Positions 1 to 17,600 of a DNA stretch of 64,000 bases are shown here, piece by piece. Under the pieces are notes generated by a model. The model did no database searches. It had not been told where the DNA came from and was given only the letters and a program-made list of their open reading frames with translations. The DNA is from Aureispira sp. CCB-E (GTDB taxonomy: Bacteria; Bacteroidota; Bacteroidia; Chitinophagales; Saprospiraceae), in the NCBI RefSeq assembly GCF_031326345.1, contig NZ_CP133671.1:372001-436000 (forward strand), given 5' to 3'. The position numbers and the translations under genes were made by a program. Each line of letters begins with the position of its first letter. Position 1 is the stretch's first letter.

Positions 1-2007
1 ATAAAAGATATTTTACCACCTGAAAAACAACAAGCAATAGAAAATGCTCGAGATAAAGCCGTGCAAAGAGCTGAATTAATTTTAGCTGCTGGCGGAAGCC
101 CTACAGAAGCAGAACGAATGTTAGAACATATTCCTATTGTTTTTTGGCCAGATCAGTTTTTAGAAGAAATGCGTTTGTGGCGTAAAGCAGAAGCACTTTA
201 CTTTGAAAAGAAAGGAGAGGAGGCCAAACAAGAATTTATTGATTCGGGACTCAAGGAATTTATTATGAATGCTAAAGAAGCTATTACAGCTCCAATGGCT
301 GTTTATAATGAGGTTCTAGCAAGTGGCAAATACCAATTGGAGGTTAAAAATCCCGATGGAACGACCAAAAAAGTAGAGTTTAACATCTTAGATGCTTCCC
401 ACGAAAAAGAGGTCAACCCTGATGGTTCTCCAATGAAAGGAAGCAAAATTGCAACAAACGTTTTAAGTTCTGCTCTTGATGCCAAAACAGCCATTACGGA
501 TATTAAAAATATCATTGACTCTCGAAAAGATGACGACCCTGAGGCAATTCGGAAGCGTCAAGTAATGATAGGGAAAGTAATTGCTAGTACTACTCAAAAG
601 TTATGTGATAATGCTACCAAATACTTAAATACAACTGCCGAAGGAGTCAATGGTCCCAAGATTGCGACTGCTGTTCTCAAAAGTGTGTCTCTATTGACAA
701 AGCTTATCTTAAAAAGTACAGAAGGTCTTGAAGATCCTGTCTTGGCTAAAGATCATTTCAAAGAAGTATTTTCGGTCGAAAATGCTGGGGAAATTGTAGG
801 CACTCTATTAGAAGTTGGGGCTGGTGTCAGTGAAATTGTAGGGTTATTTAATTCTGTTGGTAACGTAGTTGGTTCTGCTTTTGGTGTTGCTGTCAACGTC
901 AAAGCGCTAATTGCTAGTGCTCAAAAATTACATGCTGCTATCCAAGCTAAAAATGATATGCGCTCTGTAGAAGAACGTGCTGTAAGAGAGGATAGTATCA
1001 TGTTGCATGCTATTCGTAGAGAAATGTTGACAGCAAAAGAAGAAGTAGCAAAAGGTGCTGTGGAAGTTACTGGCGATTCGTTGAAAGTTGTTGGTTCTGG
1101 AACAGCTACCGTGGGAGCTATCGTTGGTTTGGGTCAGCCAGCTGTAGGGGCAGGTATCAATGTTGGTGGAAAAATCGTAGAAAAATTAGGCGATGTTATC
1201 AAAATCAGTGGGAAAGTCGTCTTTATGATTCGAGACAACGAAACCAAGAAACGCGTCAAAAAATTAATGAAAGAAGCTCAAACAGATAGAAATGCTCGTA
1301 TAGAACTGCTAGAAAATAGCTCTTTCTTTGCTAAAGCTTATCTCGCTATTGGTTTTGAAGAAGGTGACAAAATCGCTGAGCATTACTGTTTGGTAAAAGG
1401 TATTACTGAAGATGATTTAGACCATGAGGCAACGGCTCGTTCTATCCTTGAAAAACTAATTGCTGATGATCCAACAACAACAGATGAAAAAACAATTGGT
1501 GACAAGGTTCAAGATTTTGCTAATAATCTCAAAGGAATACATCAAAAGTATCTAAAACTTAACCAAGCAAACCTCCAGTTAGGTAGTGTAAAAGAACTAC
1601 GCCCGAGCGTACAATCAGTTGTTGATACGTACAAAACACTAGGTAAAATTTCTACTGGTGTAACAGTTGCTTCGGTAATTACAACCGTACTAACCAGTGG
1701 TTTAGGCCAAATTACATTCTTAGGGGACGAAGCGCTTGAGGCCTATATTGAAGATTGTGCAGAACATTTGAAAGAGTTGAATGGTTTCTTAACCTATATG
1801 ACAGAACATCAAGATTTGAATATCAAGGGTTTAATTCAGCGAATAGAAACCTTAAATCAAGAGTTGGATGGTATTTCTGACAATGACTTGGTGTTAGAAA
1901 AAATACAAGAAATCACTGAAAGAGAAGAAGATATAAGAAATAGAAAATTATATATTCAAGAAGTTATTGAATCTAAAAAACTATTTGCAGAGATTGGAAT
2001 TGTATAA
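1..2007 (+). CDS. Hypothetical large protein, 5' end outside window
   Basis: The frame is open from base 1 with no start inside the window, so the gene begins upstream and only its last 668 codons are seen. A GTG at 61 is an internal Val codon, not a convincing start. I do not recognise the family. The visible part is Lys/Glu-rich and mostly helical. A long Gly/Ala/Val-rich amphipathic middle (about residues 255-395, rich in VG, AG and SG pairs) could insert in or lie on membranes. The last 80 residues are heptad-like and probably coiled coil. No signal peptide can be assessed. A strong terminator (2128-2159) follows. A toxin or injection-system effector is possible from composition alone, but nothing proves it. 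Confidence 0.6.
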   Translation: MKDILPPEKQQAIENARDKAVQRAELILAAGGSPTEAERMLEHIPIVFWPDQFLEEMRLWRKAEALYFEKKGEEAKQEFIDSGLKEFIMNAKEAITAPMAVYNEVLASGKYQLEVKNPDGTTKKVEFNILDASHEKEVNPDGSPMKGSKIATNVLSSALDAKTAITDIKNIIDSRKDDDPEAIRKRQVMIGKVIASTTQKLCDNATKYLNTTAEGVNGPKIATAVLKSVSLLTKLILKSTEGLEDPVLAKDHFKEVFSVENAGEIVGTLLEVGAGVSEIVGLFNSVGNVVGSAFGVAVNVKALIASAQKLHAAIQAKNDMRSVEERAVREDSIMLHAIRREMLTAKEEVAKGAVEVTGDSLKVVGSGTATVGAIVGLGQPAVGAGINVGGKIVEKLGDVIKISGKVVFMIRDNETKKRVKKLMKEAQTDRNARIELLENSSFFAKAYLAIGFEEGDKIAEHYCLVKGITEDDLDHEATARSILEKLIADDPTTTDEKTIGDKVQDFANNLKGIHQKYLKLNQANLQLGSVKELRPSVQSVVDTYKTLGKISTGVTVASVITTVLTSGLGQITFLGDEALEAYIEDCAEHLKELNGFLTYMTEHQDLNIKGLIQRIETLNQELDGISDNDLVLEKIQEITEREEDIRNRKLYIQEVIESKKLFAEIGIV

Positions 2008-2127
2008 ATATGAGGTAAAATCAATGCTGTGGGTTTCGAAATACAATTTGCCATTGTTCTTGCCACAGCATATTGAAATTTTACCAATCAACATAAAGTG
2101 CCTTATATAGTTGGATTTATGTGGAGA

Positions 2128-2159
2128 GGCTGTTTGCTCATGGCAAATGGCCTTTTTTT
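2128..2159 (+). terminator. Intrinsic terminator after the first gene
   Basis: A 10-bp stem (2128-2137 with 2143-2152, two G-T wobbles) with a 5-base loop is followed by seven T residues. It lies between the unknown protein and the metF promoter. Confidence 0.75.
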
Positions 2160-2160
2160 A

Positions 2161-2189
2161 TTGAAGTTCTTTGAAAAAATATATCTTTG
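2161..2189 (+). promoter_or_regulatory. Bacteroidota-type promoter of metF
   Basis: TTG at 2161-2163, an 18-bp spacer, and TATCTTTG at 2182-2189 match the Bacteroidota -33/-7 consensus TTG...TAnnTTTG. Transcription would start near 2196, downstream of the TTG codon at 2171 that also opens the frame. This decides for the ATG at 2246 as the metF start. Confidence 0.65.
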
Positions 2190-2245
2190 CAGCATCTAAC
2201 TATCTACTTAACTGTATTCATTCAGTTTTTAGACAACCAATAACT

Positions 2246-3202
2246 ATGAAAGTAACCGATCACTTTAAGGCAGCCAATGGCGAGACCTTAATCTCTTTTG
2301 AAATTTTGCCCCCGCTCAAAGGAGGAAAAATTCAAAGTATTTTTGATACACTAGATCCATTGATGGAATTTAATCCTCCATTCATTGATGTTACCTACCA
2401 TCGCGAAGAATTTATTTACAAAAAACGTTCTAGCGGCTATTACGAAAAAGTAGCCATGCGTAAGCGACCAGGAACAGTAGGCATTTGTGCGGCTATCATG
2501 CATCGTTATGGAGTAGACGCTGTCCCTCATTTAATTTGTGGTGGATTTAGTATAGAAGAAACAGAAAATGCTTTAATCGATTTACAGTTCTTAGGCATCG
2601 ACAATGTTTTAGTACTTCGTGGTGATGCCCGTAAATTTGAAGGCAAATTTATTCCCGAACCCAATGGGCATCCTTATGCACTTGATTTGGTCAAACAATT
2701 GGTCAATATGAACGAGGGAATTTATCTAGATAATGATATTACCAATGCAGAACCTTCAGATTTCTGTATTGCTGTTGCAGGTTATCCAGAAAAACATTTT
2801 GAAGCACCAAATCATCAAAGCGATTTGTACTTTTTAAAGCAAAAAATAGACGCAGGAGCAGAATATATTGTCACTCAAATGTTCTTTGACAATCAACAAT
2901 ATTTTGATTTTGTGGATCGCTGTCGAGCTGTCGGTATCAATGTTCCTATTGTACCTGGCTTAAAACCTATTACTAAGAAGTATCAATTAAATTCTATTCC
3001 TCGTTTGTTCCACTTAGACATTCCCAAAGACTTTTCAGATGCGTTGTTAGCAGCCAAAGATGCTGAAGCACGTCGTCAAGTTGGTATCGAATGGACTGTT
3101 GCTCAATCGAAAGAATTAAAAGCCGCTGGGGTGCCTTGCTTGCACTACTATACAATGGGTGATGTTGACACAATAAAAGAAATTGTTGGGCAGATTTATT
3201 AA
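2246..3202 (+). CDS. metF: Methylenetetrahydrofolate reductase
   Basis: Reduces 5,10-methylenetetrahydrofolate to 5-methyltetrahydrofolate, the methyl donor for methionine synthesis; cytosolic flavoprotein. The protein is 318 residues, normal for the family. It keeps the N-terminal ISFEILPP motif with the catalytic Glu, the LVLRGD loop, the AGYPEKH segment and the PGLKPI motif. A longer reading from TTG 2171 is rejected because a promoter lies over it and the extra 25 residues match nothing in MetF. The gene is monocistronic, between a terminator at 2128 and one at 3227. Its partner in methionine synthesis in this window is the SAM-riboswitch-controlled homoserine dehydrogenase; no SAM riboswitch is visible before metF itself. 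Confidence 0.95.
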   Translation: MKVTDHFKAANGETLISFEILPPLKGGKIQSIFDTLDPLMEFNPPFIDVTYHREEFIYKKRSSGYYEKVAMRKRPGTVGICAAIMHRYGVDAVPHLICGGFSIEETENALIDLQFLGIDNVLVLRGDARKFEGKFIPEPNGHPYALDLVKQLVNMNEGIYLDNDITNAEPSDFCIAVAGYPEKHFEAPNHQSDLYFLKQKIDAGAEYIVTQMFFDNQQYFDFVDRCRAVGINVPIVPGLKPITKKYQLNSIPRLFHLDIPKDFSDALLAAKDAEARRQVGIEWTVAQSKELKAAGVPCLHYYTMGDVDTIKEIVGQIY

Positions 3203-3226
3203 TCGTACAACTACAAAATACAAATA

Positions 3227-3267
3227 GAGCAGCTTATTTTATAATAATAAGCTGCTCTTGTATTTTT
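3227..3267 (+). terminator. Intrinsic terminator of metF
   Basis: A perfect 12-bp stem (3227-3238 with 3246-3257), 7-base loop, then a T-rich tail. Flanking AT bases extend the stem, so it may also stop the convergent minus-strand gene at 3336. Confidence 0.8.
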
Positions 3268-3335
3268 ACCAATACTTCATCAAGTTAAAGCAAAAAACCA
3301 CGACTACGCAATAACAGCGTCACTAAATACTATTT

Positions 3336-3905
3336 TTAATGAATCTTGTTAAATCTATAAGCAACAATTAATTGCAGACTAGACCATCGCAAGCCATAGT
3401 CTATATCAACTGTCTTTTGGGTTTCTTTTAAATTGGAATAAGCCGCTACTAACTCAACATTAAAATAGGGGAGCAGTTCTAATGAAATTACCCAATGTTT
3501 TCCTAACCTATAATTCATCCCTAAAATTATATTCATATTGGGAATTGTCTTCAACGTAAGTTGGCTTGGGTCTCCTATAATTGTACGAGTCGCTACTTGA
3601 TAGTTTAAACCTAGATTAAAACCATAGACAAAAGCAATATTGTTAGCTAAACTATGCCTAGATTCTGTTCCTAAACTAAAACCAATGCCAAAGTCACTTT
3701 CTTGACCACGCCCTTTTTTGATATTATTTCCATTCAAAAATAAAGTTTGTAATCTAAAAAAATTCTTTGTTTTTCCAGTTTTGTAAGACAACCTATAATT
3801 TAAGTCAGCATCGAGCGAAATGCCTATTTCGTGTATTCGCTGTGCCCAAAGCTCTGCCTTAATTCCTACACAACAAACTAATGTTATAATTTTAATTATT
3901 AACAT
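3336..3905 (-). CDS. Hypothetical secreted beta-barrel-like protein, paralog A
   Basis: 189 residues with a short N-terminal hydrophobic signal segment ending near Ala-Gln (residues 21-22). The rest alternates hydrophobic and polar residues in strands with many Tyr, Asn and Gly, and ends in VAYRF, as small outer-membrane barrels do. It is clearly related to the next gene upstream (4021-4608): both share HEIG, YK.GKT, FRL, LNG, LGF/LGM and VAYRF at equivalent places. The pair is a tandem duplication on the minus strand, 115 bases apart. The function is unknown; location at the outer membrane is inferred from sequence character only. Confidence 0.7.
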   Translation of the reverse strand: MLIIKIITLVCCVGIKAELWAQRIHEIGISLDADLNYRLSYKTGKTKNFFRLQTLFLNGNNIKKGRGQESDFGIGFSLGTESRHSLANNIAFVYGFNLGLNYQVATRTIIGDPSQLTLKTIPNMNIILGMNYRLGKHWVISLELLPYFNVELVAAYSNLKETQKTVDIDYGLRWSSLQLIVAYRFNKIH

Positions 3906-4020
3906 AAAATTGTTTTTGAATAATCCTTTTGAGTTTTTTTATCTCAAAATCCAATACAAAATAGAATTCAAACTAATTCTACTTTCTTACTTATACCTCA
4001 TTGTATTTCATAATATTAAC

Positions 4021-4608
4021 TCAACTAGATTTATTCTTTCTTCGACCAAATCGATACGCAACTACTAAGTATGTATTAGTCAAATTCATACCATAAAAAA
4101 TTTGACTTTCTTCCTGATTTGCTCCTGAAATACTAGCTCTATACCGTACATAAGGGCAGTTTTCTATAGAGAATTGCCATTGATCATTCAATGTATAACT
4201 GAAGCCTAGAAGTAAATATAACTCTGGTGATATGGTATGCTCCTCTCCAGTTGCTTTCCCATTACTAAAATGATAATTAGTTTGGTAACTACATTGAGCT
4301 CCCAATCCGTAGATAAAAGACAAATTATCAATAATGTTTCTTCTAAATTCCCAACCAACACCAATACCAGCTCCAGACATATTGATATATTGACTACTAG
4401 TTGTCTGAATGGCATTACGACCGTTCAAATAAGCCAGGTCTAAACGAAATAAACTATTTGTTTTTCCCACCTTATACAAAAAGCCGAGATCCAAAGCAGA
4501 ATTGACCTTTAATCCAATTTCGTGTAGTGCGGGTGTTTTTTGTGCAGCAGCTTTCCAGATAATAAAAAATGTACACAAACCAAGGAGTAAACAACGATGA
4601 GTAAGCAT
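4021..4608 (-). CDS. Hypothetical secreted beta-barrel-like protein, paralog B
   Basis: 195 residues from the ATG at 4608. A longer frame from TTG 4650 adds 14 residues but runs into a terminator hairpin, so the ATG, which opens a good signal peptide ending in AAAQ, is preferred. The mature part shares HEIG, YKVGKT, FRLD, LNG, YGLG and VAYRFG with its neighbour at 3336-3905 and shows the same strand-like pattern. No enzyme motif is seen. It probably arose by tandem duplication with paralog A. It lies only about 22 bases beyond the terminator that follows the heme A synthase gene, so its expression may depend on readthrough. Confidence 0.7.
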   Translation of the reverse strand: MLTHRCLLLGLCTFFIIWKAAAQKTPALHEIGLKVNSALDLGFLYKVGKTNSLFRLDLAYLNGRNAIQTTSSQYINMSGAGIGVGWEFRRNIIDNLSFIYGLGAQCSYQTNYHFSNGKATGEEHTISPELYLLLGFSYTLNDQWQFSIENCPYVRYRASISGANQEESQIFYGMNLTNTYLVVAYRFGRRKNKSS

Positions 4609-4630
4609 AATTATAAGTTTTTTTATAATA

Positions 4631-4665
4631 AAAAATGTCCTTGCCAACAAGGTGTTGACAAGGAC
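4631..4665 (-). terminator. Hairpin between ctaA and paralog B, terminator or attenuator
   Basis: On the minus strand GTCCTTG (4665-4659) pairs with CAAGGAC (4643-4637), with additional internal pairs, followed by a T-rich run (plus-strand A at 4631-4635). It sits after ctaA and only 22 bases before the start of the next minus-strand gene, so it could act as an attenuator. Confidence 0.6.
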
Positions 4666-4781
4666 AAGAATAGAAGTATTACTCCTTATTTTGTATTAAA
4701 AGCTTGTTAATAGCTTCTTATATAACGGTTGGTTATAAGCCTGTTAAACTTATAATAAGACTCTGGAAAAACAATCAAAAG

Positions 4782-5951
4782 CTAATCCAATACAAGGTCT
4801 TTTTTAACTTCGGTTGTTCGCAAAATATGCTCTCCTCCCTTTCCAAATTGATAATTGACATACAGCATTGCTGCCAACAATAATAATCCTCCAGCTTGAT
4901 GCAATACCCCTAATAATAGAGGAATTTGTCCAATTCCATTCAATAAGGTCAAAATTCCTAAAGTAATCTGTGCGATTAGAATAAAAAGGAGTAATTGGCT
5001 GCCTCTAGCAAGTTGAGGAGATTGGTGTATACGACGAACATACAAATAAAAAATAGGAATTAAAATACACAATAAATAAGCTGTTCCTCGATGCAACAAT
5101 TGGATGAGCGCAGCAGCAAAACCAGCCCCTTCTTTTGAGTTATAAGCTCGCATATTTTCCCAAGTCCATTTAGAATAATCCTTTAGTACATCGGCTATCC
5201 ATACCCACGAACCGTCTGTAGAACTTACCTCCATGTGAGGAAAATGATTAAAAACTAATCCCGCTTTGATACCTGCCATCAAACCTCCTAATACAATTTG
5301 TAGACAGATAATAATGGTAATACGCCAAGCAAAGGTTCTTAAACGTTTGTTGTGTTCATCTGTAGCAACAGGCTGCACAACATGCAATGCTACCCACCAC
5401 AAATAACCAAAAACAATCGTTGCTAAACTCAAATGAATTGTCAATTTGTACCCATTTACCCAAGCAAACTCTGGCGTATCAAGCCCTGATTTGACCATAA
5501 TCCACCCAAAAACGGCCACTAACATTGTCAACGCAACAACTTTTCCCAACATTACCATCAAAGGCTTGGATAACATCTTTCGCCTCCAAAAAATCAAAAA
5601 CGGAATTAAAAAAACAAATCCCATAGTACGAGCCCACAACCGATGGAAATATTCCCAAAAGTAAATAAACTTAAAATCATTCATAGGAATTCCATCAGGA
5701 TACATTGCTCCAGACCATTTCATCTTCACCTGCCCTATAGCGTGTTCCATATACTCTTGTCGAGCAACTTCCCATTGTTCGGCATTCAAAGGTGGGATTG
5801 TTCCTTGAATTACGGCCCATTCTGTAATCGATAGCCCAGAATCTGTTAGTCTAGTTATTCCACCAATAACAACTTGACAAAAAACCATTACAACTCCTAT
5901 CAGTAACCAAATTTTTACAGCGTTCGAAAACGTTTTTGTTTCTTTTGCCAT
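4782..5951 (-). CDS. ctaA: Heme A synthase, COX15/CtaA family
   Basis: Converts heme O to heme A for the cytochrome oxidase of the respiratory chain, in the cytoplasmic membrane. The 389-residue protein has about eight membrane spans. The four haem-ligand histidines expected of the family appear as EYFHR (His103), TIHLS (His173), LLHRG (His287) and VLHQAGG (His351). The N-terminal GGITRLTDSGLSITEW motif is typical of the COX15 (type 2) branch, without the Cys pair of Bacillus CtaA. It stands alone here, with no cytochrome oxidase genes beside it, and faces away from the putative replication origin on its upstream side. Confidence 0.95.
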   Translation of the reverse strand: MAKETKTFSNAVKIWLLIGVVMVFCQVVIGGITRLTDSGLSITEWAVIQGTIPPLNAEQWEVARQEYMEHAIGQVKMKWSGAMYPDGIPMNDFKFIYFWEYFHRLWARTMGFVFLIPFLIFWRRKMLSKPLMVMLGKVVALTMLVAVFGWIMVKSGLDTPEFAWVNGYKLTIHLSLATIVFGYLWWVALHVVQPVATDEHNKRLRTFAWRITIIICLQIVLGGLMAGIKAGLVFNHFPHMEVSSTDGSWVWIADVLKDYSKWTWENMRAYNSKEGAGFAAALIQLLHRGTAYLLCILIPIFYLYVRRIHQSPQLARGSQLLLFILIAQITLGILTLLNGIGQIPLLLGVLHQAGGLLLLAAMLYVNYQFGKGGEHILRTTEVKKDLVLD

Positions 5952-6310
5952 TCTTATAACTTTCTTTTATACCATTAGCACCTCTGAATTAAATCAACTG
6001 ATAACCAGCCAAATAAGGCAGTTTTAATAACATAGAGGCCAAGTATGATTAAATATACGTCCAATTAGACGGTTAAAAATTTTGTACAAATTTACAATTC
6101 AATAAACGATATCATACTATAAAAGCTTAAAGCTTATTTTTTTTTAGAAAAAATCTAAACTACTCCAGATTTAAACAAAAATGGTTTTGCGTTAGCAGCG
6201 GAATTCAAACAAATTTTTGTTTCCCTTTTTCCAATCAAAAATCTAAACACATCTATATAATTATAATAAAAAGAAAATTTAAAATTAAAAAAGCTATCAT
6301 TATTAGGAGC

Positions 6311-7094
6311 GTGGATAAGTGGATAAGTCGTTTTAGAAAATATTTTTTTTGCTGTTAAATGACTATTAACAATAAAAAAGAAGTTATCCACTATAGTTAT
6401 CCACATATAAGTATGCTTTTAGTCAGTATTTTATCTTTTTATGCACAGATATCCACATTTTTGTGGATAAAACACTCAAAATATAGATTTTTTTATTTTG
6501 CTGTTGATTACTGTGGATATTGATGTGAATAATTGTACATTAATCCACAAAATGTACGATAAAAATAGATTTTTATAGACAATAGAAGAAGTCTTGTGGA
6601 TGAACTGTGGATAAAACCTATACTTATCCACAGTTATAGACAAATAAACTGTGGATATCTTTGGTTTTAAATAGTTGTTTTTTAGCTATTTATATATATA
6701 TACATAAATAATGTTGATAACTACCTAATAACAATTTGTTTTTCTGTAAAAACACAAAAAAATGTAGAAGTAATACTATTATTTTTGATAGAGGAATATC
6801 TTTTTAAAGGTGTTGATACTTTTATGGATGGATTTATGCACATTGTGAATAAGGTGTGGATAACTTGTGAATTATGTGTGCGTAACTTACCTAGGTAGTA
6901 AAAAATTACTTTTTTTTAACCCTTTTTTGCGTTTTTGAGGTTGATTTGTAACCAAAAAAGTTAGCATAGAGTGAGAAATCTAAAAAATGAGTTAATTATC
7001 CACGTTACTTTTGTGCATAACTAAATAAATTGTGGATAAGCTAAAATGGCTAACAAAAAAAAAGTATAAAATTAATAGGAAAAATTGTGGATAA
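6311..7094. other. Candidate chromosomal replication origin (oriC)
   Basis: This lies in the gene-free, very AT-rich stretch 5952-7252. Seven perfect 9-mer DnaA boxes are present: TTATCCACA at 6397-6405 and 6624-6632, and its complement TGTGGATAA at 6462-6470, 6606-6614, 6855-6863, 7031-7039 and 7086-7094. About ten more sites differ by one base (for example 6318-6326, 6384-6392, 6449-6457, 6512-6520, 6541-6549, 6595-6603, 6650-6658, 6844-6852, 6996-7004, 7012-7020). The segment 6660-6790 is almost pure A/T with a TATATATATATA run and could be the unwinding element. dnaA is not adjacent, which is common in Bacteroidota. The flanking genes diverge from it. Confidence 0.85.
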
Positions 7095-7252
7095 TCAATT
7101 TAATAAGCTTAGCTTTACGGGTTATTTCAAAAAATAATACCCACACATAGATTTGTTTTAATAAAAAAACAAGCCTAAATAGCATAAACGATACTATAGT
7201 TATATAATAGTGGTATCCTATTTACCAATGTGCTTCAAAATTCTTGATACTT

Positions 7253-7921
7253 ATGCCCACTCGTTTCTCCTTCTCTGCTTCAAAAGAAAAAATGAAGCGT
7301 CAGTTTAATTTAGATATAAAAAAAGAATTGCAACAGAGTTTTAATATTGGAGCAACTCAAAATGCTTACTTGTTGACCAATCAATCTCTAGATTTACAGA
7401 TATTTAGTTGGGGGTTGATTCCTCATTGGGCTAAAGACAAAAGTGTGGGAACAAATTTGATTAATGCACAAGTAGAGGGAATTGCCAGTAAATTATCTTT
7501 TCGTTTGCCAATTCGCCAGAGACGCTGCCTAATTTTTGCTGATAGTTATTATGAGTGGACAAAAGAGGGGAGAGCTACTCAACCCTATCGAGTACAATTA
7601 AGCAATGGAGACTTGATGACTTTTGCAGGAGTTTGGGATGTATGGGTAGATGGTAACCAAGGATTACACAAGACTTTTTCTATTATAACAACACCTGCCA
7701 ATAACTCACTAAAAGAACTGGGTATATCTAGAATGCCAGCGTTGATAACAACAGGAACTGATCGTGCTAAATGGTTGGGAGAACACTCGCTTCCTAACGC
7801 ACTTAATATACTTCAACCTTTAGAAAACCTTTCTTTGGATATTTATCCTATTGCTAAAGAAGTTGATTCTTTGGATAATAACTATCCAGAACTTCACAAG
7901 CCTATAGAACTGAGCTCTTAG
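7253..7921 (+). CDS. SRAP/YedK-HMCES family protein lacking Cys2
   Basis: SRAP proteins bind abasic sites in single-stranded DNA and form a protective thiazolidine crosslink through Cys2. This 222-residue protein has the family fold signatures: RFSFS at the N terminus, GLIPHWAK, INAQ (Asn equivalent to YedK Asn75), YYEW (Glu equivalent to Glu105), TFAGVWD and SRMP. The canonical start MCGRF is MPTRF here, so the catalytic Cys2 and Gly3 are gone. The usual HDRMP is ISRMP, so the active-site His is also missing. An upstream ATG-TGC at 7228 is out of frame. Either the protein binds DNA without crosslinking, or it is a decaying copy. It lies beside the putative origin. Confidence 0.85.
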   Translation: MPTRFSFSASKEKMKRQFNLDIKKELQQSFNIGATQNAYLLTNQSLDLQIFSWGLIPHWAKDKSVGTNLINAQVEGIASKLSFRLPIRQRRCLIFADSYYEWTKEGRATQPYRVQLSNGDLMTFAGVWDVWVDGNQGLHKTFSIITTPANNSLKELGISRMPALITTGTDRAKWLGEHSLPNALNILQPLENLSLDIYPIAKEVDSLDNNYPELHKPIELSS

Positions 7922-8411
7922 GAACATTCAAAAAATAAATTACCAAGTATTACTACTGGACTTAGCAATCTAATTTCTATTCGGTTTTACAACAAGTAAC
8001 TCTTTTCGTTTTATACCCTTAGCAAGGGTATAAGACTAAAATATAATTCCTTAGAGTGAACTTAAACTCCCTACAAATAAAAAATGTATATTTGCAGCAA
8101 ATTTATTGCCTAGCGTGATTTATTTTAAGTTTTATTTACTTTATAAAGTAAAAGAAAAAGTTCTACAGCATTGATTATCATAGATTTTGATTTGTGGTTT
8201 TAGAATTGTGCGGCTGATGATAATCAGTTTTAATGAAATAAGCTATTGTTTTGCCAATGCAATGCCTTCAATATAAATATAATGGTAGACAGCATAGCTC
8301 ATTCAAAAATGAAGTGTTTAAATAATCAATAAGTAACCGTTGAGAAAAAGGTGGTAGGAAAACCTCTTTTTAGCGTTATACTACTAATTTTATAATAATT
8401 ATAATCAAATC
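7922..8411. other. Long intergenic leader before transketolase
   Basis: No gene is seen. A TATATTTG box at 8087-8094 fits the Bacteroidota -7 element but lacks a good TTG upstream. It would give a leader of about 300 bases. That leader holds a perfect inverted repeat, TGATTATCAT (8172-8181) with ATGATAATCA (8217-8226), and a weaker hairpin near 8345-8385. No known riboswitch was recognised. Confidence 0.35.
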
Positions 8412-9260
8412 ATGGCTGATATTCAATCACTAGAACGTATGGCTACACAAGTACGTCGCGATATTATTCGTATGGTACATGCTTGTCAAAGTGGTCACCC
8501 TGGAGGGTCTTTAGGATGTGCTGACTTTTTTACAGCATTATATCAAGAAGTAATGGATCACAATCCCTCTTTTAACATGGAAGGCAAAGGAGAAGATGTC
8601 TTTTATTTATCTAATGGGCACATTTCACCTGTTTGGTATAGCGTGTTGGCTAGATCTGGATATTTTCCAGTAGAGGAGCTAGCAACCTTTCGAAATCTAG
8701 ATTCTCGTTTGCAAGGTCACCCCGCAACACACGAAGGACTTCCTGGTATACGTGTAGCCTCAGGTTCTTTAGGACAAGGATTATCAGTTGCTTTAGGAAC
8801 TGCTTTGGCAAAAAAGCTAGATGGTGACAATAAGTTAGTTTATGTGTTGACAGGAGATGGAGAACTACAAGAGGGACAAATCTGGGAAGCAATGTTGTTT
8901 GCAACGCACCAAAAAATAGACAATGTCATTGTTACTGTAGATTGGAATGGGCAGCAAATTGATGGTGCGAATGATGATGTACTTAGTTTAGGAGACTTGG
9001 AAGCCAAATGGTTATCATTTGGTTGGGAAGTGGTGCACATGGATGGTAACAACATGGAAGAAGTTGTCAAAGGCTTTGATGCCGCAAAAGCAAAAACTGG
9101 TCAAGGGAAACCTGTTGTTATTTTAATGAAAACAGACATGGGGCATGGTGTTGATTTTATGTCAGGAACTCACAAGTGGCATGGTAAAGCACCTAACGAT
9201 GAGCAAAAAGATATTGCGTTAGCTCAACTAGAAGAAACTCTAGGAGATTATCCTCTGTAA
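8412..9260 (+). CDS. Transketolase, N-terminal subunit
   Basis: First half of a split transketolase, which transfers two-carbon ketol units between sugar phosphates in the non-oxidative pentose phosphate pathway using thiamine diphosphate. The 282 residues carry SGHPGGSLG near the N terminus, the SLGQGLSVA loop and the ThDP-binding motif GDGELQEG (residues 148-155) closing at Asn179 of VDWN. The HKWHGKAP segment is near the C terminus. The partner subunit follows 50 bases downstream on the same strand, so the two are very probably co-transcribed. Split transketolases of this length are common in Bacteroidota and Archaea. Confidence 0.93.
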   Translation: MADIQSLERMATQVRRDIIRMVHACQSGHPGGSLGCADFFTALYQEVMDHNPSFNMEGKGEDVFYLSNGHISPVWYSVLARSGYFPVEELATFRNLDSRLQGHPATHEGLPGIRVASGSLGQGLSVALGTALAKKLDGDNKLVYVLTGDGELQEGQIWEAMLFATHQKIDNVIVTVDWNGQQIDGANDDVLSLGDLEAKWLSFGWEVVHMDGNNMEEVVKGFDAAKAKTGQGKPVVILMKTDMGHGVDFMSGTHKWHGKAPNDEQKDIALAQLEETLGDYPL

Positions 9261-9310
9261 GTTTCAATTGCTTTAACTAGTTATTACTTCTAAACTTAAA
9301 ATTAAAAACA

Positions 9311-10276
9311 ATGCTTAAAGATATTATAAGTACAGGCAAGAAAGCAACTAGAGATGGCTTTGGTGATGGTTTGTACGAAGCTGGTCAAAAAAATCCTAAT
9401 GTAGTGGCGCTTTGTGCAGATTTAGTAGGGTCACTCAAAATGAATAAATTTATTGATGAGAACCCTGAGCGTTTCTTCCAAATGGGGATTTCAGAAGCCA
9501 ATATGATGGGCGTTGCTGCTGGTTTGGCAACAGGTGGAAAAATTCCTTACACAGGTACATTTGCCAATTTCTCAACGGCTCGTGTTTTTGACCAAGTGCG
9601 CCAGTCGATTGCTTATTCTGATAAAAATGTAAAAATTTGTGCTTCTCATGCTGGACTGACGTTGGGAGAGGATGGTGCTACTCATCAGACCTTGGAAGAT
9701 GTGGGAATGATGAAAATGTTGCCTGGTATGACTGTCATTAATCCTTGCGATTATCACCAAACCAAAGCAGCAACCGTAGCAATTGCTGAGCATCATGGTC
9801 CTGTTTATCTTCGTTTTGGGCGCCCAAGTTGGCCTATGTTTACAGAAAATATGCCTTTTGAAATAGGAAAGGCGTTGACATTAAATGAAGGGACAGACGT
9901 TACTATTTTTGCAACAGGGCATTTGGTGTGGAAGGCTGTGGAAGCTGCCAAACAACTAGAGGAAGAAGGTATTAGTTGTGAACTGATTAATATTCATACG
10001 ATTAAGCCTTTGGATCAAGATGCTGTCCTAAAATCAGCAGCGAAAACAAAATGTGTCGTTGTTGCTGAAGAACACAATATTATAGGTGGATTAGGAGAAA
10101 GTGTTGCTCGTGTATTGGCTCAAAAACAACCAACGTTGATGGAGTTTGTCGCAGTAAATGACACCTTTGGAGAAAGTGGAAAGGTACCTGATTTGATTGC
10201 TAAGTATGGATTGGATACGGTTGATGTTGTTAAAGCCGTTAAAAAAGTACTAGAAAGAAAAGCTGAAAATGCGTAG
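9311..10276 (+). CDS. Transketolase, C-terminal subunit
   Basis: Second half of the split transketolase: the pyrimidine-binding and C-terminal domains, 321 residues. Visible features are GISEANMMGVAAGLA (with the Glu that activates the ThDP pyrimidine ring), SHAGLTLGEDGATHQ, YLRFGRP, and a C-terminal regulatory-like domain with IHTIKPLD and EEHNIIGGLG. It follows the N-terminal subunit by 50 bases and must work with it as a heteromer. DXS, the related fused enzyme, is excluded by size and by the split arrangement. Confidence 0.93.
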   Translation: MLKDIISTGKKATRDGFGDGLYEAGQKNPNVVALCADLVGSLKMNKFIDENPERFFQMGISEANMMGVAAGLATGGKIPYTGTFANFSTARVFDQVRQSIAYSDKNVKICASHAGLTLGEDGATHQTLEDVGMMKMLPGMTVINPCDYHQTKAATVAIAEHHGPVYLRFGRPSWPMFTENMPFEIGKALTLNEGTDVTIFATGHLVWKAVEAAKQLEEEGISCELINIHTIKPLDQDAVLKSAAKTKCVVVAEEHNIIGGLGESVARVLAQKQPTLMEFVAVNDTFGESGKVPDLIAKYGLDTVDVVKAVKKVLERKAENA

Positions 10277-10430
10277 TATCAATTTATTATAAAATAAAAC
10301 GGTCTTCTTCTTATTAGAGGAGTGATAGACTATCCTTATTATTTTTAGCATCGTTATACTATTTGAGAGGAGTTGTTATAGTATAGTGATAATAAAGGTA
10401 ATAAGGATTTTTTTTATTAATAAAGGACCT

Positions 10431-11582
10431 ATGTTTTGTAAGAGAATAACGCTTTTCTATTGTATGTTGTTTTTTGTTGGGTGTAAAGATGCTCTTGTAA
10501 AACCCATTCGTTATAAAGGGGGCGATCTACATCCGCAACCTTCCAAGTATATTTTTCCCGATACGAGCAACTATAGACTTCATCAGCAAGTTTCATCTGT
10601 TGTGAAAACAATCTTAGATAGAGAAGCTAAAGACATTATGGGTAGGCAAGCGATAACGGGGCTTTCGGCTGCTATGTTTATTCCCAATCAAGGAATTTGG
10701 CAAATTGATACAGGTTTTATTTCTAAACCTAACAATGTTTTGATTGATCACCTTTCGGTTTTTTATTGGGCAAGTGTCGCTAAACTCGTGACAAGTACTG
10801 TTGTTTACCAATTGGTTGCAGAACAGAAATTAAAACTCAGTTCACCTCTTCAAAATTGGTATCCGAATATTCAAAATTCGAATCAGATAACCATTGAGCA
10901 TTTATTAAATCACACCAACGGTATTTATAGTTTTAATAGTGATTCATCATTGCACTTTAGTCAGCAGCTTCATAGCCCAACAGAGTTGTTGAACATAGCA
11001 TTGTCCAAGGAATCATTATTTCAACCTGGCGAATACTGGGCATATACCAATACTGGGTATTTATTACTTGCATTGATTGTAGAGCAAATCGAAAATAAAT
11101 CCTTTCAGGAGATTGTTAAAGATAGAATTGCAAGACCAGAACAATTATCTTCTTTACGAGTATTGAACTTGGGAGAATTACCTAACAATTTAGCTTTGGC
11201 ACATTATAATAACACAACAATTACCACGGAATATTCTGTACCTTTGGGGGCAGGAAATATAGTTGCTAATTCAAAGGATATGGTTTTATTTTTCTATGCC
11301 TTATTAGTAGGTAAGTATCTGCCGATAGAGACCGTACATGGGATGTTGGCAAATTTGTATCCTATGTTTAATGATGGAATGTACTATGGCAATGGAATTA
11401 TGTTGTACGATTTTGATAAAATCAATGGAAGTAGCCAAGAATGGATAGGACATAGTGGAGGAACCGAAAACTACAAAGCTGTTTTGGCTTATGATACTAA
11501 TACAGGAGTAATTTGTGCCGTATCTGTCAATCAGAACATTTCAGCTGAGGCAATTGCATTTATTTTAATGAAAGCATTATAA
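10431..11582 (+). CDS. Serine hydrolase lipoprotein, class C beta-lactamase-like
   Basis: 383 residues from the ATG at 10431 (a GTG at 10386 is less likely). A lipoprotein signal ends in FFVGC, so the protein should be anchored in the envelope. The penicillin-binding / class C beta-lactamase fold is shown by SVAK (nucleophile Ser115, Lys118), YTN (Tyr205-Asn207) and HSG (341-343). LLNHTNGI and NTGYLLL are typical of the wider serine hydrolase group. The substrate may be a D-amino-acid peptide or an ester; true beta-lactamase activity is not implied. An inverted repeat pair (10334-10341 with 10399-10406, and 10355-10361 with 10379-10385) folds just upstream. Confidence 0.88.
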   Translation: MFCKRITLFYCMLFFVGCKDALVKPIRYKGGDLHPQPSKYIFPDTSNYRLHQQVSSVVKTILDREAKDIMGRQAITGLSAAMFIPNQGIWQIDTGFISKPNNVLIDHLSVFYWASVAKLVTSTVVYQLVAEQKLKLSSPLQNWYPNIQNSNQITIEHLLNHTNGIYSFNSDSSLHFSQQLHSPTELLNIALSKESLFQPGEYWAYTNTGYLLLALIVEQIENKSFQEIVKDRIARPEQLSSLRVLNLGELPNNLALAHYNNTTITTEYSVPLGAGNIVANSKDMVLFFYALLVGKYLPIETVHGMLANLYPMFNDGMYYGNGIMLYDFDKINGSSQEWIGHSGGTENYKAVLAYDTNTGVICAVSVNQNISAEAIAFILMKAL

Positions 11583-11909
11583 TGCATATAACTAGAGGAA
11601 CTATGAGCTTAAAATCTCATTTTGGAATGGTTTTTTTATGGAAAAAATGTTACCTTATGAAAAAAAACGAGAGGTTCTATTTACCTACTAAAGCCTCTTA
11701 AACCATTACCAATAATACTTTTTGGCAAGATAAGTGTTTAAATTGGCAACAATAGACGCCTTTTTTAAGTTAAAATAATAGACATTAGCAATTATTTTGA
11801 GGTAGAATAGAATGTGAAATCTTGCTCTAAGGTTGTTTTTAGAAGCACTCTATTCATTAACAATAACTTATTTGTAAACAATATTTACACAAACAAATCC
11901 ATAAATATA
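11583..11909. other. Intergenic, no gene seen
   Basis: AT-rich stretch between two lipoprotein genes. A short hairpin (GAGAGG with CCTCTT around 11670-11700) may end the upstream transcript. A GTG at 11814 is in frame with the next gene but adds 32 residues that look unlike a signal sequence. Confidence 0.4.
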
Positions 11910-12716
11910 ATGACAAGATTAAGAAATTTATTTGCTCTGCTATTATTTGTGGCTGTGTTCCACACGGCTTGTGATCGCCCGATTAATGTATTCACGGTAA
12001 GTCAAGACAAGCAATTAGGAGCACAATTGGAACAAGAGATAGCTTCTAACCCTACAGAGTACCCTTTATTGGATGAAACGCAATATGCAACAGCTTATAC
12101 TTATTTGTTGGCAATGCGCGATGAAATTTTGGCATCGCCAGAAGTAAAATTCAAAGATGAGTTTGAATGGAAATTAAAGATCATTAATGATGATAGCGTT
12201 TTGAATGCTTTCTGTGCTCCTGGGGGATATATCTATGTGTATACTGGATTGATGAAATATTTGGATAAAGTAGATCATTTAGCAGGGGTATTAGCACATG
12301 AAATTGCACATGCAGATCAACGCCACTCAACGGCTAGTATGACAGAGCAGTATGGACTTGAAACATTAATTGCAATTGCTAGTAATAATGCAACCGCAGC
12401 ACAATTGGGACAAGTAGCAGGAAGTTTGGCACAATTAGGTTTTAGCCGTGCTCATGAAACAGACGCTGACGAACATTCTGTTGATTATTTACACAGCACT
12501 AAGTATGCTTGTAATGGAGCGGCAGGATTCTTTGCTAAGCTAATAGCACAAGGACAAACTTCTGGAACACCTGCTTTTTTGAGTACACACCCTGATCCAG
12601 GAAATCGTGTTACTAAAATTAATGAACGTGCAACAGAACTAGGTTGTTCAACTACATTATATCATGATAATGGCGATCAAGGTGCCTATGCAGCAATGTT
12701 AGCAACATTGCCATAG
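11910..12716 (+). CDS. M48 family zinc metalloprotease lipoprotein
   Basis: 268 residues from the ATG at 11910. An N-terminal hydrophobic stretch ends in HTAC, a plausible lipobox, so the protein is probably lipid-anchored. The zinc site is HEIAH (His130, Glu131, His134), with the third-ligand Glu in the downstream ETDADEHS segment. Other M48 marks are NAFCAPGGYIYVYTGL before the active site and STHPDPGNR near the C terminus. Members of this BepA/LoiP-like group degrade or help assemble outer-membrane proteins, and a similar envelope quality-control role is inferred. The gene ends at a strong terminator. Confidence 0.92.
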   Translation: MTRLRNLFALLLFVAVFHTACDRPINVFTVSQDKQLGAQLEQEIASNPTEYPLLDETQYATAYTYLLAMRDEILASPEVKFKDEFEWKLKIINDDSVLNAFCAPGGYIYVYTGLMKYLDKVDHLAGVLAHEIAHADQRHSTASMTEQYGLETLIAIASNNATAAQLGQVAGSLAQLGFSRAHETDADEHSVDYLHSTKYACNGAAGFFAKLIAQGQTSGTPAFLSTHPDPGNRVTKINERATELGCSTTLYHDNGDQGAYAAMLATLP

Positions 12717-12746
12717 ATAACTACCTGATCTTAGGCACTTATACCT

Positions 12747-12789
12747 AAAAAATCGTTCTACTATAAGACTATGGTAGAACGATTTTTTT
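12747..12789 (+). terminator. Intrinsic terminator of the M48 gene
   Basis: AAATCGTTCTAC pairs with GTAGAACGATTT across a 12-base loop, extended to about 15 bp by flanking A and T runs, and ends in T residues. Confidence 0.85.
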
Positions 12790-12863
12790 ATTTGGATGCA
12801 GATATTTATTGAATACTTCTTCTATTCTTTTTGGTCATTAGAGCAAGTACGCTAGACTTGTAA

Positions 12864-12899
12864 CATAAAAAAGCCACTTGAGTAGAGCAAAGTGGCTTT
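12864..12899 (-). terminator. Intrinsic terminator of the TPR gene
   Basis: On the minus strand AAAGCCACTT (12899-12890) pairs with AAGTGGCTTT (12879-12870), followed by further T residues. It lies just past the stop of the TPR gene. Confidence 0.8.
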
Positions 12900-12917
12900 C
12901 AATCTAAAATTTATAAT

Positions 12918-14333
12918 CTAAGACTCGTTTTTATACTGCAATATGAACGAAGTTACACTAGCGTCATCTGCCAATCTGGGAGCAATTTGATAAATATAGG
13001 TATGCATATTATAATCCTCCATAAGTGCTTGCCCTAAAACAACAAAACCTTCTTGACGTTGACCAGACTCAATAAGCACAGCAGCTAACGCAAAATCCAA
13101 CAAAATGTCTTCGATATACTGTCTTGCTTCGTCAAGCATTTCAATGGCAACAGCATAGCTTTCTTCATCAATCAAGAACTCTATGTAATGAATCCAAATG
13201 CTAACCTCTTTAGGTTCAATGGCGAGTGCCTTGTGGTAAAACTCATGCGCTTTGTCTGAATTTTCTAAAGCATCATAAGTATCTGCTAGAGAAAGACAAA
13301 ATTCTTCATTAAACTTATCTACAGCATAGGCTTGTAAGAAAGCTTTTTCTGCCAAATACCACTCATCTTCCTCTATATAACAGTTGCCAATGCTATGATA
13401 AACACGTCCATTTAAACTATTGTATTGCAAGGTTTGTGTATAGTAACTTCTTGCTTTTTCATAATTTCCTTGATGTTCGTAGCACTGTCCCAAACGATAC
13501 CAAATTTCTGGATCTGCATCAAACAAATCCAAGTATTCGGAAAGGTAGCGCATGGCTGCATCAAATTGTTCTAATCCAATTAAACAATCAATGTAATAAT
13601 GATAAGCAGGTTCAAAGCGCTCATTGATAACAATGGCATAATCAAAGGCTTCGGCGGCTTTTTCGATCAAACCAACATATAAGTAAGCTAACCCTAAATT
13701 ATACCAAGCCCAATAAGAATATGGGTTCTGATTGATAAAATTCAGATGAAATGTAATGGCATCGCCATAATCTTTGGTTTGATCATAGATACCCGAAATA
13801 CGACTCAATGCAATTTCATTGTTAGGATCTTTGCGAAGCGCTAATTTTAGATATTTAAGCGCATTATCATAATCTTTTTTTGTTTCATAAATTGTAGATT
13901 CTAAAACATAAAGATCGCCCAATTCTTCCCTACTAGCATATTCTTTAGCTTTTTGAATGACTCTGATAGCGTTATCTTGGTCAAACATACGCATATAGAT
14001 ATCTGCTTGGGTCAAGTAAATGTCCAAATCAGAAGGCTCATAAATAACCGCAGCTTCTAAAGCTTCAAAAGCTTGGTCATATCGCTCTTGTTCTGAAAGA
14101 ATTTGAGCTTTTCTGACATATAAAGACGCAGAGTAGGGATGTTGATTCATTGCGTGATTTAGAGCTACTAAAGCACGCTTAAAGTCATTTCCTTCCTCGT
14201 AATAATCCGATAACATCAAGAAACTATCTACCTCTAAAAAAGAGATACCACCTTCTTTTAGCATACCTTCATATCGCTGAACCAGCAATTTCAAATCTGG
14301 TTGATGCTCTCCATCATAATCATGTGCTTCCAT
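12918..14333 (-). CDS. Tetratricopeptide repeat protein
   Basis: 471 residues built almost entirely of about a dozen TPR units, recognisable by the W/Y-L-G-Y-A-P spacing, for example WYNLGLAYLYVGLIEKA and WYRLGQCYEHQGNYEKA. No signal peptide or membrane segment is seen, so it should be a cytosolic scaffold for protein-protein contacts. The partner is unknown. A TPR protein of this length is common in Bacteroidota genomes. It has its own promoter (14383-14413) and terminator and stands alone between an M48 protease and an M1 protease gene. Confidence 0.9.
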   Translation of the reverse strand: MEAHDYDGEHQPDLKLLVQRYEGMLKEGGISFLEVDSFLMLSDYYEEGNDFKRALVALNHAMNQHPYSASLYVRKAQILSEQERYDQAFEALEAAVIYEPSDLDIYLTQADIYMRMFDQDNAIRVIQKAKEYASREELGDLYVLESTIYETKKDYDNALKYLKLALRKDPNNEIALSRISGIYDQTKDYGDAITFHLNFINQNPYSYWAWYNLGLAYLYVGLIEKAAEAFDYAIVINERFEPAYHYYIDCLIGLEQFDAAMRYLSEYLDLFDADPEIWYRLGQCYEHQGNYEKARSYYTQTLQYNSLNGRVYHSIGNCYIEEDEWYLAEKAFLQAYAVDKFNEEFCLSLADTYDALENSDKAHEFYHKALAIEPKEVSIWIHYIEFLIDEESYAVAIEMLDEARQYIEDILLDFALAAVLIESGQRQEGFVVLGQALMEDYNMHTYIYQIAPRLADDASVTSFILQYKNES

Positions 14334-14382
14334 CTAAAGTTGTTTGGGTTCAAAATAGCACTTAGATAAGTACCTCTTTCTT

Positions 14383-14413
14383 TAAAGATACAAATAAAAA
14401 AGACAATAGTCAA
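14383..14413 (-). promoter_or_regulatory. Promoter of the TPR gene
   Basis: On the minus strand, TTG (14413-14411), a 20-bp spacer and TATCTTTA (14390-14383) match the Bacteroidota consensus except for the last base. The start point would be about 45 bases before the ATG. The remainder of the 14334-14662 gap holds nothing else I can name. Confidence 0.55.
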
Positions 14414-14662
14414 GGCTTGTTTGTCACCGTATTGTTTATATTTTGTGCCATCCCTATTTCTTTTTTAATAGAATTTCTACAAAAATCACCATACTTTTTA
14501 AGTCAGGTTAATTGTAGATAAACTGTATCTTTATTATTAATTCAAACCTTGTACCATTAGTTCTCTCCAAAGCACTTTTGACAAAAATTTAAAAGTTGTA
14601 GTTTAGCTTTTAGTAGCATCTACCTATGGTATTATTTTATAATTTTTATAACAATCGCTCCT

Positions 14663-17600
14663 ATGTATCACAATAAAAAAGTAAAACCCTACCTTAATTT
14701 AGTTTTGTTAATGGTGTTGATGTTTAATGATTTATCGGCACAAAATGTTGATTATTTTCAGCAAGAAGTCAACTACAAAATTGCGGTGGAATTAGACGAT
14801 ATCAATCATGTTTTGACTGGAAATATCGAAATAGAGTATACCAATAATTCACCTGACAGTTTGTCTTACTTGTATTTCCATTTATGGCCCAATGCTTACA
14901 AAAATCAACAAACAGCCTTTGCCAAACAGTTATTAAATAGTGGTCGTTTGGATTTTCATTTTAGCAAAAAAGAGGACAGGGGATTTATTGACAAGCTTGA
15001 GTTTTCATGCAATGGAGAACCTATTGATTGGAAGGAAGATTTTTTAAATCCAGATATAACAAAGCTTCATTTACCCCAAACATTAAAACCCAAAGAAACA
15101 ATTATAATCAAAACGCCTTTTAGAGTTGTTATTCCTAGCGATTTTTCTAGGTTAGGGCATGTTGGTCAGGCTTATATGATTTGTCAATGGTACCCCAAAC
15201 CAGCGGTATACGACAAAGATGGCTGGCATCCTATGCCTTATTTGAGTCAAGGAGAGTTTTATTCAGAATTTGGTTCTTTTGATGTCTCTATTACGCTTCC
15301 GGAAAATTATATTGTCGGTGCAACAGGAGATTTACAAACAGCATCAGAAAAAGAATTTTTAGCCGAACAAGTAGCGGCATCAAAAAAAGAAGATTATCAA
15401 AGTATATTTTATGGCAATATTTATGGCAATATTCCTTTCCCTCCATCTAGTGATAAGAAAAAAACGATTCGTTATACTGTTGATAATGTACATGATTTTG
15501 CTTGGTTTGCCGACAAACGGTATCACGTACAACACGATAGTGTACAGCTGTCATCTGGGCGTGTAGTGCAGACTTATACCATGTTTACAGACCAAGAATC
15601 TGATCTTTGGGACAAAAAAGCATTGGAATATACCAATAGAGCTGTGAAGTTTTATTCTGATATCGTAGGAGAGTATCCTTATAATTCTGTGACGGTTGTT
15701 CAGGGGGATTATGAGGGGAGAGATATGGAATATCCAATGGTAACCGTTATTGGTTTGGCTTCCTTCCCTTCTGGTTTAGATAATGTGATTACACACGAAG
15801 TAGGGCACAATTGGTTTTATGGGATATTGGGTAGCAATGAACGAGACCACCCGTGGATGGACGAAGGTTGGAATTCGTATATGGACTCTAGATATATGTC
15901 TGCGCATTACGATTATTATACCACTAAGATAGAGTACTTGGCTTATTTGCATGAGGCTAAAAAACACGAGGACCAGCCCATAGAGAGTCGTTCACAAGAT
16001 TTATCTTTTATCAATTATTATATCTGTGGATATGCCAAACCTACGTTGTCTTTTCGTTACTTACAAGAGTATCTAGGAACGGAAGAATTGGATAGAATAC
16101 TTAAAAAGTATTTTGAAACATGGAAATTTAAACATCCTAGTCCTAGTGATTTGAGAGCTGTATTTGAGGCAGAGAGTACCAAAAAGTTAGATTGGTTTTT
16201 TGATAATGTCATCAATACCACTCGCCATATTGATTACGCTTCTACGGGACATCGTTGCTGTAGTAAACATGATAAGGCTTCTGTAACAATTAAAAATAAA
16301 GGACAAATTGCAGCTCCAGTTTCTGTATCCGCCCTTGATGAGGAAGACAATATATTGGAAAAAATATGGATAGAGCCATTGGCTATGGGAGCAGATACAA
16401 CTGTAGAGTTGGTATCAAAAAATGCTGTTGCTTATAAGATTGATGCCGAGGAGGCAATGCCAGAAATTAATCGCAATAATAATGAAATTAGAAACTATGG
16501 TTTGTTCCGAAAGGGAGAACCTGTTCGTATACAGTTTTTGGCTGATTTCAAAGATCCGAATAAACCAAGAATCAACTGGTTGCCTTTGTTAGGGTTTAAC
16601 TTATACGATGGCGTAATGATAGGAGGAGCGGTATACAATTTACCCATACCCAAACCAGAATGGGAATATAGTGTTGTGCCGTTCTTTTCAACATTTACCT
16701 TATCAGCAACAGGTATGGGAGAGTTGAAACACAATAGCTATATCAAAACACATCGCTTTTCGCATGGGCTAACGTTTAAAACATTTCACAAACGCTTGAA
16801 ACGCTATACCGATGAACGTCCTTATGCTTATAAAGAACGATTTTATAAAATTGCCCCTTATCTAGAGTTTGAGTTAGGAAAAAGCTCAGATATTAGCAAA
16901 GAACGACATCGGTTCCGTTTTGAACACGCTTTTATTGTAGAAGAAAGTGGTCAAATTAATAGCATTCGAGATACGTTAACCAATAGTTTTACCTATGAGT
17001 TTTTAGGAAAAGTAGCAACGTGGAGAAGTACACATCGTCTAAGTCATTATTATACCAACAAACAAGCTCAAGCACCATTAAGTTTATTAACAACCTTAGA
17101 ATATGCGAACTATGATGATGTTATAGATGGGAGGCAGCATTATTTAAAATTAAGTTTGGAAGCTAATTTCAAATTTATGTATAGTCGTTTGTGGGGAGTT
17201 GATCTAAGGATATTTACAGGTGGTTTTTTGATGCATACTGATCGCCGTTTTGGTAAATTCCCGTTGTTGCTAATAGCAGGAAATCGTACGGACTATCATT
17301 ACGATGATCATATTATGGGGCGCCAAGAAACAGAAAATGTTTTGGCACAACAAATTTCTCTTAGAGAAGGAGGTTTTAAAACAGCAATTGAGCCGATTAT
17401 AGGGGCAGGGGCAAGTAATACCTTTATTTTCTCTATGAATTTGAAATCAGACATTCCAATCAAATTACCATTCAGAACTAGGTTTATCCGATTAAAACCT
17501 TTTTTGGATATAGGATACCATCATATTTCTGACGGCTCTATACCGAATCCTAGTTTGATGGATGGTTTGATGATAAGTGGTGGATTGATGTTGGATATTT

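Follow-up and report, generated by a model that had tools for sequence, protein, structure and literature searches.

The gene-free gap between ctaA and an SRAP peptidase gene in Aureispira sp. CCB-E, at 5952–7243 of the window (the whole 64,000-nucleotide stretch that was analysed), is almost certainly the chromosomal origin of replication, oriC. We hold nearly as firmly to the fuller description, an oriC for which the ctaA-side edge of the gap (6226–6326) is the leading candidate for the opening site; given that the gap is oriC, the duplex probably opens at that edge. An earlier note on this DNA had read the region as oriC, and that reading is supported by a switch in GC skew, nearby parS-like sites, matching layouts in relatives and a conserved element. 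The note also implied that opening occurs in the A/T segment at 6660–6790, a role that passes here to the ctaA-side edge.

The intergenic gap and its DnaA boxes

The window corresponds to C1:372001–436000 in a genome of 7,391,627 bases that comprises two contigs, C1 (7,314,351 bases, on which the gap is located) and C2 (77,276 bases). The gap and its flanks are organized as follows.

4782–5951, minus strand: ctaA (COX15-CtaA family), left flank; PF02628, E 2.8e-74
5952–7243, no strand: ctaA/SRAP intergenic gap, the very probable oriC region; gene-free, with divergent flanks and a skew switch at the resolution of 20-kb samples
6384–6658, no strand: left DnaA-box array; 12 boxes, four exact
6660–6833, no strand: A/T-rich stretch separating the arrays; one one-mismatch box, at 6712
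6834–7094, no strand: right DnaA-box array; seven boxes, three exact
7244–7921, plus strand: SRAP peptidase gene, right flank; PF02586, E 3.4e-52; the open reading frame is listed from TTG at 7244

The two flanking genes are on opposite strands and diverge from the gap, as originally described. The SRAP protein shares 99% identity with its counterpart in Aureispira sp. CCB-QB1, and the CCB-QB1 gap is 98.8% identical to that of the window.

The seven perfect DnaA boxes that had been reported are all present, with exact copies of TTATCCACA between 5952 and 7252 at 6397, 6462, 6606, 6624, 6855, 7031 and 7086. One-mismatch boxes are also present as claimed, numbering 15 rather than about ten, and 22 boxes with no more than one mismatch lie between ctaA and SRAP. 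Their division into two clusters is real. The density is above chance, as had been asserted. The relaxed pattern TTATNCACA has 12 sites in 5952–7252. Simulated sequences (1000 per model) averaged 0.13 sites and never exceeded 2 under an order-1 Markov model; under an order-3 model, which had been trained on this very region with its boxes left in, they averaged 1.9 and reached at most 8. Across both strands of the genome this pattern occurs 367 times in 7.39 Mb (292 for the backwards control pattern), a frequency from which about 0.035 sites would be expected in the 698 bp that actually hold 12. The gap thus has two features expected of oriC, a gene-free stretch dense in DnaA boxes (5952–7252) and an unstable A/T-rich segment beside them. 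The segment 6660–6790, earlier called almost pure A/T, has an A+T content of 82%, and that of 6240–6303 is higher at 87.5%.

Among the matches listed there is also a smaller DnaA-box-like group at C1:725516–725553 (L006 5516–5553), where three TTATNCACA sites fall within 38 bp in the interval separating a long gene that resembles a helicase from a long one for a PKD-like surface protein (both named by reading the sequences). One idea is that this group acts as a DnaA reservoir. A strand bias of boxes past C1:762 kb was considered and rejected, since the sampled stretches there do carry reverse-strand boxes.

GC skew, parS-like sites and the position of dnaA

A change in sign of the GC skew at this position had been set beforehand as a test of the origin. 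In 40 sampled stretches of 20 kb the skew is positive in all 19 on one arm and negative in all 20 on the other, so that all 39 stretches off the cluster agree, and in the one stretch spanning the box cluster it is 0.005. The opposite switch, which for an oriC here should lie about halfway round, falls between 3.98 and 4.32 Mb; the antipode of the gap is at 4.04 Mb. Locally, the cumulative skew over C1:320–436 kb reaches its minimum at 364 kb, which is 14 kb left of the gap, and the 4-kb bins at 364–376 kb are already positive. The skew therefore locates the origin only to within tens of kb.

Sites for parS are usual in the vicinity of an oriC without defining it, and their consensus is general background. 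The pattern TGTTCCACGTGGAACA has two exact and two one-mismatch matches, the only ones in the genome. All four lie within 4 kb at C1:346–350 kb, 28–32 kb to the left of the gap. The backwards control of the pattern has three genome matches, so the number of parS-like sites is unremarkable, and their weight comes from the clustering and the two exact copies.

The dnaA gene is 1.2 Mb from the gap; adjacency of dnaA to oriC is common and is not required. The 20-kb stretch holding dnaA has only three box-like sites. In a paper on Prevotella intermedia (PMC4755523), an oriC distant from dnaA is described as common in Bacteroidetes, which makes the 1.2-Mb distance ordinary.

A conserved element at the ctaA-side edge

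The best-conserved part of the gap is 6295–6326, comprising a tandem pair of DnaA boxes, 3 bp and four triplets resembling the DnaA-trio. Together with the adjoining A/T-rich DNA it forms the following series.

6226–6294, no strand: probable DNA unwinding element, adjoining the trio-like triplets; from nearest-neighbour energy
6295–6306, minus strand: four DnaA-trio-like triplets, CTA ATA ATG ATA; from conservation in relatives
6307–6309, minus strand: 3-bp spacer between the box pair and the triplets; from the alignment of relatives
6310–6318, minus strand: trio-proximal DnaA box of the tandem pair, TTATCCACG; one mismatch
6318–6326, minus strand: distal DnaA box of the tandem pair, TTATCCACT; one mismatch

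The two boxes share one base, and are the only pair in the gap with an 8-bp step. Alignments of the gaps brought out this element near ctaA, with conserved tandem DnaA boxes followed by about 3 bp, triplets with a middle T on the box strand, and then an A/T run. By nearest-neighbour energy the least stable 50 bp of the gap are 6254–6303, and the least stable 80 bp are 6226–6305.

Conservation was followed through 61 genomes of the family, in 52 of which ctaA was matched. Removal of G008 (no upstream sequence) and of G027 and G038 (fragments) left 49, including the genome of the window. SRAP is divergent from ctaA in 23 of these 49, across a gap of 513–1371 bp; some of the 49 have short upstream sequence (e.g. 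508 bases in G013 and 593 in G026), where the absence of SRAP is uninformative. Seven named loci also have divergent ctaA and SRAP, the shortest gap being 480 bp. A matrix built from 25 relatives, with the window excluded, scores 35.8 at 6277–6334, compared with 3.4 for the next best site in the window and 13.2 for the best in other sampled DNA of the same genome (49 stretches, 980 kb with overlaps). When the three nearest relatives are taken out of the matrix the corresponding scores in the window are 28.7 and 5.6. Upstream of ctaA, 25 of 29 held-out family genomes score at least 18, a cut chosen after the scores were seen. In the remaining held-out genomes there is no matrix match upstream of ctaA in G040, G041 (which has a model match on another contig) and G056, and G022 reaches only 12.5. 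The element lies upstream of ctaA and on the same strand in 44 of 48 other family genomes, 19 of which were used in training the matrix.

Conservation within the element was counted over 42 aligned rows (25 training and 17 held-out); neither the window nor L088, which is nearly a copy of it, was among them, nor were the 12 held-out genomes with scores no higher than 25.2. Taking the four triplets in order, the central T persists in 42, 41, 36 and 22 of these relatives, and no row has lost the ACA of the trio-proximal box. Three or more consecutive triplets occur in 36 rows, with fewer in register in the other six. Because the training rows were picked for their similarity to a probe and the remaining 17 for their scores, the counts are biased in favour of the pattern, and the held-out scores are the fairer test.

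The gap could be oriC and yet open elsewhere, at 6660–6790 or beside 6595–6614 or 7086. The segment 6665–6744 is a close second over 80 bp (1.026 versus 1.023 for 6226–6305), the least stable 100 bp begin at 6687, and a block within the central stretch is conserved in another member of the genus (see below). The published search rule for the basal unwinding system (BUS) takes a DnaA box with at most two mismatches, and requires a series of three or more NAN triplets 0–16 bp away from it (PMC8287927). The ctaA-side site conforms to it, with a one-mismatch box 3 bp from four triplets and a second one-mismatch box upstream. Other sites in the gap do so too, in 25 box-spacer combinations (7 on the plus and 18 on the minus strand, with spacer variants taken separately), among them the tandem pair 6595–6614 with four triplets and the exact box at 7086 with six. 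These BUS-like sites raise our confidence in opening at one of the other positions, which we nevertheless consider unlikely. L088 and G021 are the only ones in which the central block was recovered at length, in contrast to the ctaA-side element with its wide occurrence in held-out genomes. It is because of this conservation, and not by the BUS rule alone, that 6295–6326 was singled out.

The element in other families

A model using sequence only (R1) was built without the window. Its top match in the window's own genome is the ctaA-side site (28 bits, E 1.5e-5), followed by one of 17.6 bits (E 0.028), in a search that scored 150 of 6894 first-look candidates. Matches at E ≤0.01 occur in 65 of 149 genomes of the order, 15 of them in the same family, and those near 0.01 may be due to chance. 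At E ≤0.001 there are matches in 10 of 149 genomes of the class.

The order matches inspected were the 30 given as loci. Genes were typed with Pfam at 12 loci of other families, on both sides of the element in only some of them. Here it is found upstream of nadA (L238, L245, L251 and L253), near a SurA-like gene (L234, L238 and L258), near a cytidylyltransferase-like gene (L240, L248, L253 and L255), or near YkuD (L249 and L255 above the cut-off, L239 below it). A run of at least three triplets is present at 21 of 26 loci outside the family (20 of 21 in the order and one of five in the wider class); as these loci were picked by R1, the count is not independent. Two genomes of another family were sampled for skew. 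In G163 the R1 match is at a sign change, with the expected sign in 8 of 8 samples. In G106 a weak skew flips at the match, and flips back at about one third of the circle.

These matches bear on the suggestion that the ctaA-side element regulates ctaA and is no part of an origin. Its usual place in the family, upstream of ctaA on the same strand, speaks for such a function. Against this, the same model finds it elsewhere upstream of nadA or near cytidylyltransferase-like and YkuD genes, it coincides with the sampled skew switches in both genomes tested, and there is no Rfam match over 5900–7300 at E up to 1. A ctaA regulatory element was therefore rejected on account of the different flanking genes and the skew switches in other families, and we regard it as very improbable.

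Returning to an element that belongs to the origin, we lean towards the proposal that a single unwinding element is common to origins throughout the order and persists as the neighbouring genes change between families and the box array is remodelled. In this proposal the distal box is TTATCCACA-like and the trio-proximal one degenerate, often WATTAACA-like; about 3 bp separate the latter from the triplets, of which there are usually three or four, reading 3′-GA(T/C)-TA(C/T)-TA(C/T)-5′. Its flanks would vary by family, being ctaA and SRAP, nadA, a SurA-like gene, or a cytidylyltransferase-like gene or YkuD, and turnover of the array would extend to arrays of inverted TTATCCACG pairs in one relative lacking the element. 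The earlier suggestion of a lineage-specific architecture holds for the box array, which varies between genera; it does not hold for the ctaA-side element, which is widespread in the family and recurs in the order with other neighbours. If the proposal is correct, DnaA in this order would recognize trios of a somewhat different alphabet from those read in Bacillus.

Individual relatives

A search for the same layout in related genomes had been proposed, and the layout is found, for example, in G057, a two-contig genome with a 4.35-Mb chromosome. The order is that of the window, running from ctaA through the boxes to SRAP, two transketolase halves and a peptidase-like gene (the transketolase was typed in the window only, and the other identities were assigned by reading sequences). 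The sampled skew is weak; all 7 stretches that follow the cluster are positive, and of the 8 that precede it 7 are negative. The parS-like sites are 7–13 kb from the ctaA gap in G057 and 22–23 kb from it in G021, and are on another contig in G056; the control pattern has no match in any of the three. The probable G057 origin matches that of the window in its box cluster and ctaA-side element, in the order of the genes around it and in having parS-like sites close by, and differs in having its dnaA match (C1:617–1102, starting at contig position 617) 0.53 of the circle away from the box cluster. The contig is numbered from near dnaA, and its likely origin is about halfway round, at 2.05 Mb.

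G021, from the same genus as the window, has no perfect DnaA box in the gap upstream of ctaA (L082 6718–7953), and SRAP was not found beside that gap. Only two of its triplets are in register. The A/T-rich block at about 6729–6791 of the window is 83% identical over 64 bp in this genome. In the syntenic gap of G056 (L083 3592–4138) the family element was not recognized by the matrix. The boxes there are TTATCCACG, many arranged as inverted pairs that look hairpin-like by eye, with runs of A and T on either side.

A box cluster might instead be a DnaA-titrating locus like datA, or a promoter region regulated by DnaA, with the origin elsewhere. The group at C1:725.5 kb demonstrates that clusters exist outside the gap in this genome. 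Yet the gap combines the skew switch with a nearby cluster of parS-like sites and with the conserved element, and the stretch with dnaA is poor in boxes. A datA-like reservoir would be a box cluster away from the origin; this one is not, and the reading was rejected as highly improbable. Nothing was found in favour of the origin of an integrated plasmid or second replicon, the chance of which is negligible: the gap is on the 7.31-Mb contig and not the 77-kb one, neighbouring gene order is kept in G057, chromosome-wide skew arms switch at the gap, and no rep gene occurs among the six Pfam-typed of twelve open reading frames of at least 90 amino acids in 1–16000 of the window.

A possible course of initiation

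A chromosomal oriC opening at its ctaA-side edge could operate as follows, by analogy with what is generally known of how bacterial origins bind DnaA, melt, receive the helicase and are handled by ParB. DnaA would fill both box arrays (6384–7094). The tandem boxes at 6310–6326 would anchor DnaA, which would extend toward ctaA and grip a single strand at the triplets 6295–6306. The A/T-rich DNA at 6226–6294 would then melt, the place and direction of opening being those suggested by the layout, and the replicative helicase would be loaded there for both directions. The new origins would probably be segregated by ParB bound to the parS-like sites some 30 kb to the left.

Comparison with known origins

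Both the BUS and Bacteroidota origins distant from dnaA are already known. In the open-access literature no description was found of a widespread form of the element with changing flanking genes, nor any paper treating the DnaA-trio together with Bacteroidetes. Where broad conservation of the DnaA-trio was proposed, the main text does not name the Bacteroidetes, although the supplementary tables of that paper may include the phylum. Titles and the beginnings of abstracts gave nothing usable on Saprospira oriC, Aureispira genomes or Saprospira grandis dnaA. With these triplets the DnaA-trio model can be tested by comparison in a phylum which that main text does not mention. Within the order dnaA need not mark the origin, and a 50-bp signature could help to orient draft genomes and to anchor estimates of replication rate.

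From its sequence, the ctaA-side layout resembles the BUS of Bacillus subtilis and other bacteria, sharing with it tandem boxes, a short spacer and three or more NAN triplets (PMC8287927). It differs in three respects. In the family consensus the first triplet is mostly GA(T/C) and the others mostly TA(C/T), so that triplets after the first read 3′-TA(C/T)-5′ and not GAT; the trio-proximal box is often WATTAACA-like; and six of the 42 family rows fall short of three in-register triplets.

The oriC of Prevotella intermedia OMA14 likewise pairs a skew switch with a cluster of DnaA boxes, at a great distance from dnaA (PMC4755523). For Elizabethkingia meningoseptica a second predicted oriC far from dnaA is reported, with three boxes (PMC8994065), compared with many more here, the comparison being by description. 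The Aureispira origin is set apart from these known Bacteroidetes origins by what seem to be different neighbours, and by a site of opening proposed from comparison of relatives.
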